A stretch of DNA of 64,000 nt, taken from Oscillospiraceae bacterium (GTDB taxonomy: Bacteria; Bacillota; Clostridia; Oscillospirales; Ruminococcaceae). Where the stretch lies: the NCBI GenBank assembly GCA_017465665.1, contig JAFTVU010000029.1, positions 1-64,000 of the forward strand, written 5' to 3'. Below the pieces are notes generated by a model. It was not told the DNA's origin. It made no database searches and saw only the letters and a program-made list of their open reading frames with translations. Both the position numbers and the translations under genes were made by a program. Below, piece by piece: positions 55,255 to 57,664 of the stretch (the first letter of the stretch is position 1; every line of letters begins with the position of its first letter).

Positions 55255-55333
55255 TTTTGCAGATCAAGGCGTTTATTTTCCCAGTACCTGCACATACTAC
55301 CGCTGAAATATCAACGGATAAGGAGTGCATCTT

Positions 55334-56461
55334 ATGAATAAACGCATCAGGATACTGGCATCAGTTATCATTGCCGCGATGGTCGGACAGATCACCGCGG
55401 CTTATGTATGGGCAGCGCCCGAAAGCATATCCGCGGTGAGCGCTATACTCATCGAGGCGGACAGCGGCACTGTTCTGTACGAAAAGAATGCAGATGAGCA
55501 GCGTGCTATGGCAAGCACCACCAAGATAATGACCGCCATCCTCACCATTGAAGCGGGCGACCTTGACAGAGAGTTTGTTGCGGACAGCTATGCGATCCGT
55601 GTGGAGGGTACTTCTATGGGTCTGCAGGAGGGCGACCGTGTATCGCGCCGTGACCTGCTGTATGGCATACTGCTTCCCTCAGGAAATGATGCCGCCAATG
55701 CGGCGGCGGTGGATGTGGGCGGCAGCATTGGCGGCTTTGTGGAGATGATGAACGCCAAGGCCGAGGAGCTGGGGCTGGAATCCACGCATTTCGTAACGCC
55801 ATCGGGTCTTGACGCTGATGGGCATTACACCACTGCGCGTGACCTTGCGGCGCTCACTGCCTACGCCATGAAGAATGATATCTTCCGCAGTATCGTGTGC
55901 TGCTCCTCGGCGGAGGTGGAGTATGGCAATCCGCCGTATATGCGGACTCTGTACAACTCCAACAAGATGCTCACACGCTACGAGGGTGCTATCGGAGTAA
56001 AGACAGGCTTTACAGATAACGCGCGGCGCTGCCTTGTTTCGGCGGCGGAAAGGGACGGTGTTACCCTTATCGCTGTCACGTTGAATGCAGGGGACGACTG
56101 GAACGATCATACCAAAATGCTGGATCATGGCTTTGCGCGTGTTTTCAGCTATCCGCTTGAGCTGAAATGTTCCGAGAGCGTGGCGGTGGCAGGCACAGGT
56201 CAGAGTGTTGAGGTGTACGCCGAAGAAGCTGAGATATCACTGCTTCCCGAGCAGCGTGAGCGGCTCACGAGGAGAGTTCTGCTGCCGAGGTTTGTCTATG
56301 GCGATGTGCGGCAGGGCGACAGGCTCGGCTGTATCGAGTTCAGCATCGACGGCAGAGTGATAAAGAGCTGTCCGCTCTATGCGGCGAGCAGCGTCACCGC
56401 AGACAGAGAGGAGCTTACCGCATGGCAGGTGCTGCTCTCGAAGCTGGGGATCTATGTGTGA
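55334..56461 (+). CDS. D-alanyl-D-alanine carboxypeptidase (S11, DacF/DacB-like)
   Basis: 375 aa from the ATG at 55334. N-terminal signal peptide (MNKRIRILASVIIAAMVGQITAAYVWA), then the penicillin-binding motifs SxxK in ASTTKIMTA, SGN in LLPSGNDAAN and KTG in IGVKTGFTDNARRC. A C-terminal PBP5-like beta domain follows. Trims stem peptides in the wall or cortex. It sits in the scpAB-gerW neighbourhood; spmA and spmB, often next, are not present. Confidence 0.92.
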   Translation: MNKRIRILASVIIAAMVGQITAAYVWAAPESISAVSAILIEADSGTVLYEKNADEQRAMASTTKIMTAILTIEAGDLDREFVADSYAIRVEGTSMGLQEGDRVSRRDLLYGILLPSGNDAANAAAVDVGGSIGGFVEMMNAKAEELGLESTHFVTPSGLDADGHYTTARDLAALTAYAMKNDIFRSIVCCSSAEVEYGNPPYMRTLYNSNKMLTRYEGAIGVKTGFTDNARRCLVSAAERDGVTLIAVTLNAGDDWNDHTKMLDHGFARVFSYPLELKCSESVAVAGTGQSVEVYAEEAEISLLPEQRERLTRRVLLPRFVYGDVRQGDRLGCIEFSIDGRVIKSCPLYAASSVTADREELTAWQVLLSKLGIYV

Positions 56462-56476
56462 TATATATTAATAATA

Positions 56477-56600
56477 GTATAATAAAAACAGCTTTGATCA
56501 AAAGCTGACGCTTTTGCGCTGTTTTTATTGAACGGCTGAAAAGACGGCTGTCGCCGTCTGTGCCTGTCGGCACTCAAACGCTGCTGCGTTTGTTTTCATG
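56477..56600 (+). repeat. Hairpin-array module 1 (124 nt)
   Basis: Begins GTATAAT. Part A: outer 12-bp stem AATAAAAACAGC (56481-56492) with GCTGTTTTTATT (56518-56529), and inner stem CAAAAGC / GCTTTTG with loop TGAC. Part B: closing stem TGAAAA (56537-56542) with TTTTCA (56593-56598), enclosing GACGGC-TGTC-GCCGTC, GTGCC-TGTC-GGCAC and CAAACGC-TGCT-GCGTTTG. All stems are perfect. Confidence 0.85.
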
Positions 56601-56724
56601 GTATAATAAAAACAGCTTTGATCAAAAGCTGACGTTTTTGCGCTGTTTTTATTGAACGGCTGACCTTGCCGCATACGCGGCAACGCTGCTTACGCAGCTT
56701 GCAAAGCTTCGCTTTGCGGTCATG
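56601..56724 (+). repeat. Hairpin-array module 2 (124 nt)
   Basis: Part A is identical to module 1 except one C to T that turns a G-C pair into G-T. Part B is wholly different in sequence but has the same plan: closing stem TGACC (56661-56665) with GGTCA (56718-56722), enclosing TTGCCGC-ATAC-GCGGCAA, GCTGC-TTAC-GCAGC and GCAAAGC-TTC-GCTTTGC. Confidence 0.85.
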
Positions 56725-56850
56725 GTATAATAAATTAGGCTTATTTCAAAAGCCTTGCGGCTTTTGCGCCTAATTTATTGTACGGCTGAAAAGACGGCTG
56801 TCGCCGTCTGTGCCTGTCGGCACTCAAACGCTGCTGCGTTTGTTTTCATG
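56725..56850 (+). repeat. Hairpin-array module 3 (126 nt)
   Basis: Part A keeps the plan with four compensated pair changes: AATAAATTAGGC (56729-56740) with GCCTAATTTATT (56768-56779), and inner stem CAAAAGCC-TTGC-GGCTTTTG. Part B is identical to that of module 1. Confidence 0.85.
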
Positions 56851-56882
56851 GTATAATACGGCGCGGCGGTATCTGCTGCGCC
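56851..56882 (+). repeat. Truncated fourth module
   Basis: A fourth GTATAAT is followed by a single hairpin, GGCGCGGC (56860-56867) with GCTGCGCC (56875-56882, one G.T pair), and then the rluB leader. It marks the end of the array, 35 bp before rluB. Confidence 0.6.
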
Positions 56883-56917: not shown

Positions 56918-57664
56918 ATGGAAAAAATAAGGATCCAGAAGATAATCGCAGACAGCGGTTATTGCTCAAGAAGAAAGGCGGAGGAGTTCATCTCCGCAGG
57001 ACTTGTAACAGTGAACGGCAGAGCCTGCTCGCTGGGTGACAAGGCTGACCCCAGAAACGATCTTATCAGGGTAGGCGATGACACCATCTCCGCAGAGCGT
57101 GCGGAAAAGCGCTACATAGTTCTGAACAAGCCAAGAGGCTACGTTACCTCTATGGCGGATGAAAAGGGAAGAAAGATAGCGGCTGATCTGCTGACGGATG
57201 TGCAGGAGCGTGTTTATCCCGTAGGCCGTCTTGACCGCAATTCCGAAGGCCTGCTCATATTCACTAATGACGGAGAGTTTGCAAACGACATCATGCATCC
57301 GTCACGTCACGTGGCAAAGACCTACCGTGTAACCATTGACGGCAGGGTAAAGGAGGATCAGCTTTCCCGTCTTATGGCAGGCGTTGAGATAGAGGAGAAC
57401 GTTTGGACTCTCCCCTGTACGGTAGAGGTGCTGACTGAAGAGCCTGAGCGTACAGTGCTGCGCTTTGTAATCAAGGAGGGCAGAAACCGTCAGATCCGCC
57501 GCATGTGCGAGGCTGTGGGACTTCAGGTAGGCAGACTTCGCAGAACTGCTATCGGCGGAGTAAAGCTCGGCATGCTGAAGCCCGGCGAATACCGTGATCT
57601 CACCAAGGAGGAGCTGAAGAAGCTCCGCACCGCCGTCGGCAAGAGCACAAAGCAGGGCAGATAA
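56918..57664 (+). CDS. rluB: 23S rRNA pseudouridine synthase RluB/RsuA family
   Basis: 248 aa. N-terminal S4 RNA-binding domain (RIQKIIADSGYCSRRKAEEFISAGLVTVNG), catalytic domain with VYPVGRLDRNSEGLLIFTNDG (catalytic Asp in RLDRNSEG) and KEGRNRQIRRMCEAVGLQV. ATG behind AAGGAGG. The preceding 456-nt gap is filled by the hairpin array. Confidence 0.93.
   Translation: MEKIRIQKIIADSGYCSRRKAEEFISAGLVTVNGRACSLGDKADPRNDLIRVGDDTISAERAEKRYIVLNKPRGYVTSMADEKGRKIAADLLTDVQERVYPVGRLDRNSEGLLIFTNDGEFANDIMHPSRHVAKTYRVTIDGRVKEDQLSRLMAGVEIEENVWTLPCTVEVLTEEPERTVLRFVIKEGRNRQIRRMCEAVGLQVGRLRRTAIGGVKLGMLKPGEYRDLTKEELKKLRTAVGKSTKQGR

Follow-up and report, generated by a model that had tools for sequence, protein, structure and literature searches.

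A folded module of about 125 bp, probably mobile, at the -10 box of promoters in Oscillospiraceae

The array upstream of an rluB-like gene

The window, the whole stretch of 64,000 nucleotides analysed here, comes from contig JAFTVU010000029.1 of an Oscillospiraceae bacterium. The gap between a carboxypeptidase-like gene (55325–56461) and an rluB-like gene, both names being putative and taken from an earlier sequence-only reading, is filled by an array at 56478–56857 (Table 1). The three modules reported in that reading are real, with exact spacings of 124, 124, and 126 nt. Each follows the plan TATAAT, hairpin A, ATTGAAC, a three-hairpin part B, and TGG, and a fourth TATAAT ends the array. We denote the TATAAT boundary as P and the ATTGAA-containing string as P'. 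The natural cuts between units fall at the TATAAT hexamers starting at 56478, 56602, 56726, and 56852, and that TATAAT forms part of the base of stem A. The described plan of both parts was recovered in module 1, where A consists of a 12-bp stem, a 6-nt/1-nt internal loop, and a 7-bp stem with a tetraloop, and B of a closing stem around three hairpins. The four compensated pairs in A of module 3 and the exchanged B stems of module 2 can be read directly in the sequence. The terminal ‘stub’ of the earlier reading shares only TATAATA with a module; the stretch beyond it (about 56860–56882), just after the array in the rluB leader, is a hairpin of its own, GGCGCGGCGG/TCTGCTGCGCC, non-homologous to the modules.

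Table 1. Features of the array and the gene that follows it, in window coordinates.
Feature	Position	Strand	Remarks
Left P, TATAAT, first module boundary	56478..56483	+	-10-like; clear -35 absent at this locus
Module 1 hairpin A	56484..56526	+	AATAAAAACAGC / GCTGTTTTTATT stem, internal loop, second stem
Module 1 P', ATTGAAC plus GGC	56527..56536	+	pairs with upstream TATAAT; A.A at -11, T.G at -10
Module 1 B	56537..56598	+	three hairpins enclosed by the closing stem TGAAAA/TTTTCA
P between modules 1 and 2	56602..56607	+	TGGTATAAT, extended -10 form
Module 2 hairpin A	56608..56650	+	A type as in module 1
Module 2 P'	56651..56660	+	ATTGAACGGC
Module 2 B	56661..56722	+	other sequence type, closing TGACC/GGTCA, plan unchanged
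P between modules 2 and 3	56726..56731	+	
Module 3 hairpin A	56732..56776	+	other type, AATAAATTAGGC / GCCTAATTTATT, four compensated pairs
Module 3 P'	56777..56786	+	ATTGTACGGC; sole copy of 67 with the base opposite -11A paired
Module 3 B	56787..56848	+	type as in module 1
Right P, TATAAT, array end	56852..56857	+	rluB start codon follows 60 nt downstream
Downstream gene, rluB-like (putative name)	56918..57664	+	

Folded as RNA, module 1 has a z-score of -5.84, and as top-strand DNA one of -7.75, with 0 of 200 shuffles folding as well in either case; the bottom DNA strand scores -8.72, and the whole 406-nt stretch, folded as RNA, -11.86 (0 of 100 shuffles). In the RNA fold of module 1, the 12-bp A stem is lengthened by pairing between TATAAT and ATTGAAC. 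In an alignment of 15 diverse A halves, 93.9% of the cells are paired and 13 of 22 pairs have changed on both sides (0 of 500 shuffles match), with a covariation score of 0.442 versus 0.147 in shuffles (0 of 500). For 14 modules taken whole, the share of paired cells is 83.3% (reached by 0 of 500 shuffles); it is only 48.8% and 71.4% in the first two B hairpins, where the variable loops are probably misaligned. The folding z-scores against shuffles and the A-half covariation led us to reject a chance repeat, and the pairing levels bear out the earlier proposal of selection on the fold, either as RNA or as single-stranded DNA. Comparing the two strands, we counted 16 G.T against 11 A.C wobbles in 390 cells, which does not clearly favour the RNA strand; a covarying fold, as in structured cis-regulatory RNAs, is present, and DNA-level folding is compatible with it too.

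At locus L005 (around 1515–1563), hairpin A is a hybrid with a 5' arm of type AATTAGGC and a 3' arm of type GCTGTTTTT, and the stem is broken, as in a recombinant or a decayed copy. At another locus (L295, G366:C61), an inner array edge has changed to TTTGGAT with its stems retained, so that pairing there seems to outlive the -10 box.

Distribution and modular composition

Further loci were first found by a DNA search of the own genome, and a covariance model was then built from 14 modules. With this model, the own genome holds 18 modules. Under stricter filters that lose weak matches, modules occur in 13 of 43 genomes of the genus (1 to 28 each), and none were found in the other 30; among 100 genomes of relatives, 15 match, the own one included, 13 of these being the genus genomes. 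In a sample of the order, also under the stricter filters, 7 of 394 genomes match, again counting the own one. Copy number is patchy, with 28 modules in G008, 22 in G017, 18 in the own genome, 11 in G037, 6 in G028, and one or two in each of eight other genus genomes. Five contigs start inside modules (G000:C97, G000:C47, G008:C10, G008:C36, and G008:C64), so draft genomes probably under-count the arrays. The module measures ~125 bp, reaching about 165 bp in relatives.

By reading, the same grammar in other letters was recognised in other genera (G420, G048, G413, G366, and G112). In G420, hairpin A itself holds three hairpins and B is ACATAAACC...GGGTTTATGT; in G048, P' is GTTACACCA, not ATTGAAC; and G413 and G112 have yet other stems. 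On this reading, it is the plan that has been conserved across genera, and the letters have changed. A loose scan of a wider collection gave 7 clear modules among the best-folding 40 of 169 listed matches, four of them in Oscillospiraceae contigs (L127, L138, L149, and L173) and the other three in one contig (L205); most scan matches are A+T-rich chance hits, and none of the viral matches among the same best-folding 40 of 169 resembles a module. These counts are lower bounds and carry no information on the range of the family.

The mosaic arrangement of A and B types noted in the window recurs elsewhere, the types combining freely also at L003, L054, and L075. The earlier reading had further taken A and B for separate, exchangeable units and had suggested searching each half on its own. 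Done with half-module models in five genomes, this search indicates that the halves travel together: B directly follows A in 72 of 79 A matches, and A directly precedes B in 72 of 80 B matches, the latter with a B-half model (R3) that was built with only five base pairs and is nearly a sequence model. One lone B match (L378) has a divergent A by eye, and three of the seven lone A matches have an extra stretch inside B. Three arrays of G017 (L062, L063, and L064; also L379–L381) have in common an extra, hairpin-rich stretch, GTGTGTTTCGCTCGGCATTGCC..., that adds ~110 bases to B. It may be another small repeat lodged within the module, or else a long B type. By reading, the A types within one array are often alike, which points to duplication as well in array growth.

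Placement at promoters and empty sites in related species

The hexamer at 50 left-edge copies is TATAAT in 49 and TATACT in one, and in 47 of them it stands as the extended -10 box TGnTATAAT. A -35-like hexamer, matching TTGACA in at least 4 of 6 positions, lies at a spacing of 16–18 nt in 36 of the 50, versus 70 of 494 control windows lying further upstream. A position-wise reading of the flank before the hexamer gives a TTGACA-like stretch, then 17 nt, then TRTGn. The other 14 copies have a -35 score of 3 or less, among them the window's own left end (3 of 6) and five (L034–L036, L070, and L071) that seem to be preceded by another unit and may not be true left ends. The set of 50 includes these five and omits L082 and L087–L089 (at contig ends or lacking A), L041, L048, and the other-genus loci; its members are not all independent, as flanks are common to species in L032/L047 and L034–L036. 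The apparent further unit before the modules of L034, L035, and L036 (in G015, G004, and G012) has other hairpins, with TATAATAAACGCAGAG... in two of them, and is likely another related module type.

The right end was readable in 36 arrays, with the right-most hexamers read by eye and their strings confirmed in the sequences by script. In 30 of these, a start codon with a ribosome site follows on the same strand within 260 nt, 26 of them at 19–61 nt after the right hexamer; as a control, a divergent start lies within 260 nt upstream in 12 of the 36. No conserved tie to one gene class emerged, the downstream genes being unrelated by reading and their orthologous stretches lacking the module. 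This placement bears on two alternatives. Terminator or insulator arrays, with A and its flanking A and T runs acting as a bidirectional terminator, are very improbable: type A1 does have CAGC/GCTG followed by TTTTT, but the A types GCGCCTAATTTATT and GCGCCAAATTTATT keep the pairing without a T run, and the arrays sit between promoter and gene, where terminators would silence the gene. A cis-acting structured RNA leader, riboswitch- or attenuator-like, made from the left promoter and tuning the downstream gene through copy number, would suit the arrays in the 5' leaders of genes (30 of 36), the RNA folding of module 1, and the strong covariation. We consider it unlikely, since the downstream genes are, by reading, unrelated and their orthologues do without the element, the conserved base of stem A includes a TATAAT that would lie outside any transcript from that promoter, DNA folding is at least as extreme as RNA folding, and the wobble counts do not clearly favour the RNA strand.

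The sites without modules were examined with probes from 15 downstream genes, searched in eight genomes of the genus; the probe of L057 gave no orthologue. None of the 51 orthologous stretches from 14 loci contains a module (covariance model, E up to 0.01). We compared 50 of the 51 by eye, one ending at a contig edge. A -10 box is readable at the module position in 40, as TATAAT in 23 and TATACT in 17, and no promoter is readable in the other 10. A script confirmed that these hexamer strings occur in the sequences. A -35 of at least 4 of 6 accompanies 35 of the 40 readable sites, a count that takes the best of any place where the string occurs and has no control of its own. All these comparisons are between species, the compared gene stretches being ~73–92% identical.

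The cleanest empty sites are those of L085, L075 (CTTGAAAACGTTTTCAAAATATGGTATAAT), L058, L068, L003, L002, and L059. At L085, the carrier reads TCGTCAATATGTGGTATAAT, module, TATACT, where the empty site of G037 reads TCGTCAATATGTGGTATAATTTATTAG; the carrier has TTTTTCGTCAATATGTGGTATAAT and then the module, and the orthologues have TTTTTCGTCAATATGTGGTATAAT or TATACT and then the leader. The gene of L059 has an array of another type in G028 (L072), which suggests two separate arrivals at one promoter. In G037, the orthologue of the L004 site (L337) is empty except for TATAATAAAAACAG ahead of an ordinary leader, possibly an excision scar or a chance match. In two of the stretches (L326 and L345), a bare ATTGAAC is present with no module by the covariance model. 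For the window's own locus, 16 orthologous intergenic stretches contain no module by the same model, the empty site not being alignable to the base.

Since the orthologous stretches have no module and, in 40 of the 50 compared, an ordinary promoter -10 box in its place, the module is best seen as having been inserted at that box in the direction of transcription. That the module boundaries are promoter -10 boxes, and that the module was inserted there, is a point absent from the sequence-only reading. We conclude, with a probability of roughly 0.75, that this ~125-bp non-coding module is very probably mobile and is joined exactly at a sigma-A -10 box, with transcription and with a TATAAT-like hexamer on each side. 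This conclusion builds on what was observed directly: where the module sits and how it is oriented, its absence from the same sites in related species, its tandem arrays, and its conserved fold.

Edges, movement, and kinship with known repeats

The TATAAT-like hexamers on both sides might stem from a target-site duplication, yet the left and right distributions differ. Left hexamers differ from those of empty sites (TATAAT in 49 of 50 versus 23 of 40, p = 1.2e-6), and right-most hexamers, with TATAAT in 22 of 36, do not (p = 0.82 against the same 23 of 40). Left hexamers thus look element-borne and right ones host-like, as would be expected if a circular module recombined at a -10 attachment site, in the manner of integron cassettes or bcr repeats, in place of a duplication made by a transposase. 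Every edge is the same P and arrays grow at P, which also suits such a site-specific recombination cassette, and the right hexamer equals that of the readable orthologues at L085 (3 of 4), L081 (3 of 3), and L058 (6 of 6). Against it, L069 has TATACT at both edges, as duplication would give; at L003 (3 of 3) and L077 (2 of 2) the right hexamer is TATAAT where the readable orthologues have TATACT; the right hexamers of L002 and L068 are absent from every orthologue read; and no recombinase was identified. We rate the cassette as less likely than not; it would provide a mechanism for insertion at the -10 box and does not compete with that reading.

The left hexamer is also tied to P' by base pairing. 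ATTGAA pairs with the upstream TATAAT, but in 66 of 67 modules the A at -11 has no pairing partner. Opposite this A, position 2 of TATAAT, stands A in 65 modules and C and T in one each, the T in module 3 of the window; opposite position 3 stands G in 64. These 67 modules were chosen out of 86 rows by a list of P' strings written after the rows were seen. The A at -11 is the key base of the -10 box. On one reading, a perfect P' complement would create a backward promoter, which the mismatch prevents with the stem retained; on the other, the mismatch leaves -11A free in the folded strand. The pairing extends to the base N before the left hexamer, which matches its P' partner after ATTGAA at 40 of 56 left edges, versus 22.9 by permutation (0 of 20,000), a test that ignores the relatedness of modules, and a few flanks are common to more than one species. 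It was tried on 57 edges, from which L005 was dropped for its unpaired A arms, a case that counts against strict pairing. Bases further upstream show no link to P' at the same 56 edges in the same test, so the module's say appears to end at N. Either N-TATAAT is brought by the module, or it is selected by pairing, or it is read in the choice of target; if pairing is under selection, this might maintain the left TATAAT, which then need not have come with the module. It is doubtful, though conceivable, that P' serves as a guide. In this case, ATTGAA(C/A/T) of the folded single-stranded module would pair with N-TATAAT on the non-template strand of an open promoter; A-11 would stay unpaired because sigma holds it flipped out, and insertion would be directed to open transcription complexes.

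For the preferred reading, insertion at the -10 box, we propose that the module moves and would be recognised as a folded single strand. Each TATAAT edge would then offer a fresh target, and arrays could grow either through insertion time and again or through unequal recombination. Once a module is in place, the host -35 would work with the module's left TATAAT, the old host -10 box being displaced to the right end, and the downstream gene would still be transcribed and would gain a structured leader. P', as a near-complement of TATAAT, would close hairpin A and, by its mismatch at the key base, disrupt a -10 box in the reverse direction.

We found no transposase or recombinase tied to the module in a survey of two families, Y1 (PF01797) and IS110 (PF01548). 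IS110 occurs in 7 of the 43 genus genomes and in none of the five element-rich ones, which speaks against an IS110 bridge-RNA element; Y1 occurs in 9 of the 43. In schemes of the IS200/IS605 or REP type, insertion is oriented, hairpins are recognised on one strand, and a short target adjoins the element, features that fit the module if it were moved in trans by a Y1 transposase. Genomes G000 (two pieces, one with stops), G008, and G028 do have Y1 matches, but G017 (22 copies, 92% complete) and G037 (11 copies, 83% complete), both rich in the element, have none, and membership in such a family is therefore quite unlikely. Half-module models revealed no autonomous, long, gene-bearing copy in five genomes. 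One candidate was an ORF at L082 that seemed to terminate within the element. The translations next to it do not look transposase-like by reading, the A half is unrecognisable, and the candidate was set aside.

The module is short, gene-free, strongly palindromic, dispersed, and present in many copies, with empty sites between species. In these respects it resembles MITEs, which the excerpt of PMC10969869 presents as small, palindromic, dispersed, and probably mobilised in trans. It differs from that account in having no partner transposase found, no simple terminal inverted repeat pair, though P and P' are near-inverted repeats, and one functional target, the -10 box, approached with transcription. 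The Correia elements of Neisseria, in the same excerpt, are likewise interspersed, lie mostly upstream of genes, and carry promoter sequence; as described there they bring promoters, whereas the module sits on a promoter already present and connects that promoter's -35 with the TATAAT of the module's own edge. The BOX elements of Streptococcus pneumoniae, as far as the excerpt of PMC3049150 describes them, are also modular, with a variable tandem part, predicted folds, and many scattered copies, and are proposed to be parasitic. They have the form boxA-boxB(n)-boxC with distinct end modules and no -10 target named in that excerpt; our arrays repeat A+B as one complete module with a -10 box at each edge, and no distinct end modules were seen in them by reading, which sets it apart from BOX by that description. 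The bcr repeats of Bacillus cereus, in the excerpt of PMC6542083, measure 100–400 bp and are proposed to follow a mechanism like site-specific recombination at a short A+T motif; that motif is another one (TTTAT), the hosts are others, and a promoter target goes undescribed in the excerpt.

No Rfam family matched above threshold. The B part has two weaker matches to isrK (RF01394), at 28.2 bits against a gathering score of 50 bits; two simple hairpins explain them, and identity with isrK was rejected. Among the open-licence papers listed by our searches, judged by title and start of abstract, we found no matching description and none of a repeat that targets the -10 box. The earlier statement that no named family with this plan is known is thus supported, as are the proposals of selection on the fold and of a free combination of A and B types, while the view of A and B as separate units is not. 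The module is likely a new variant of the small non-autonomous interspersed repeats (MITE/BOX-like), and we place it outside any named family.

If mobile, a repeat that targets the -10 box would rewire many promoters without destroying them. It would explain the sudden appearance of long structured leaders, and it would offer a test case for transposition coupled to transcription.
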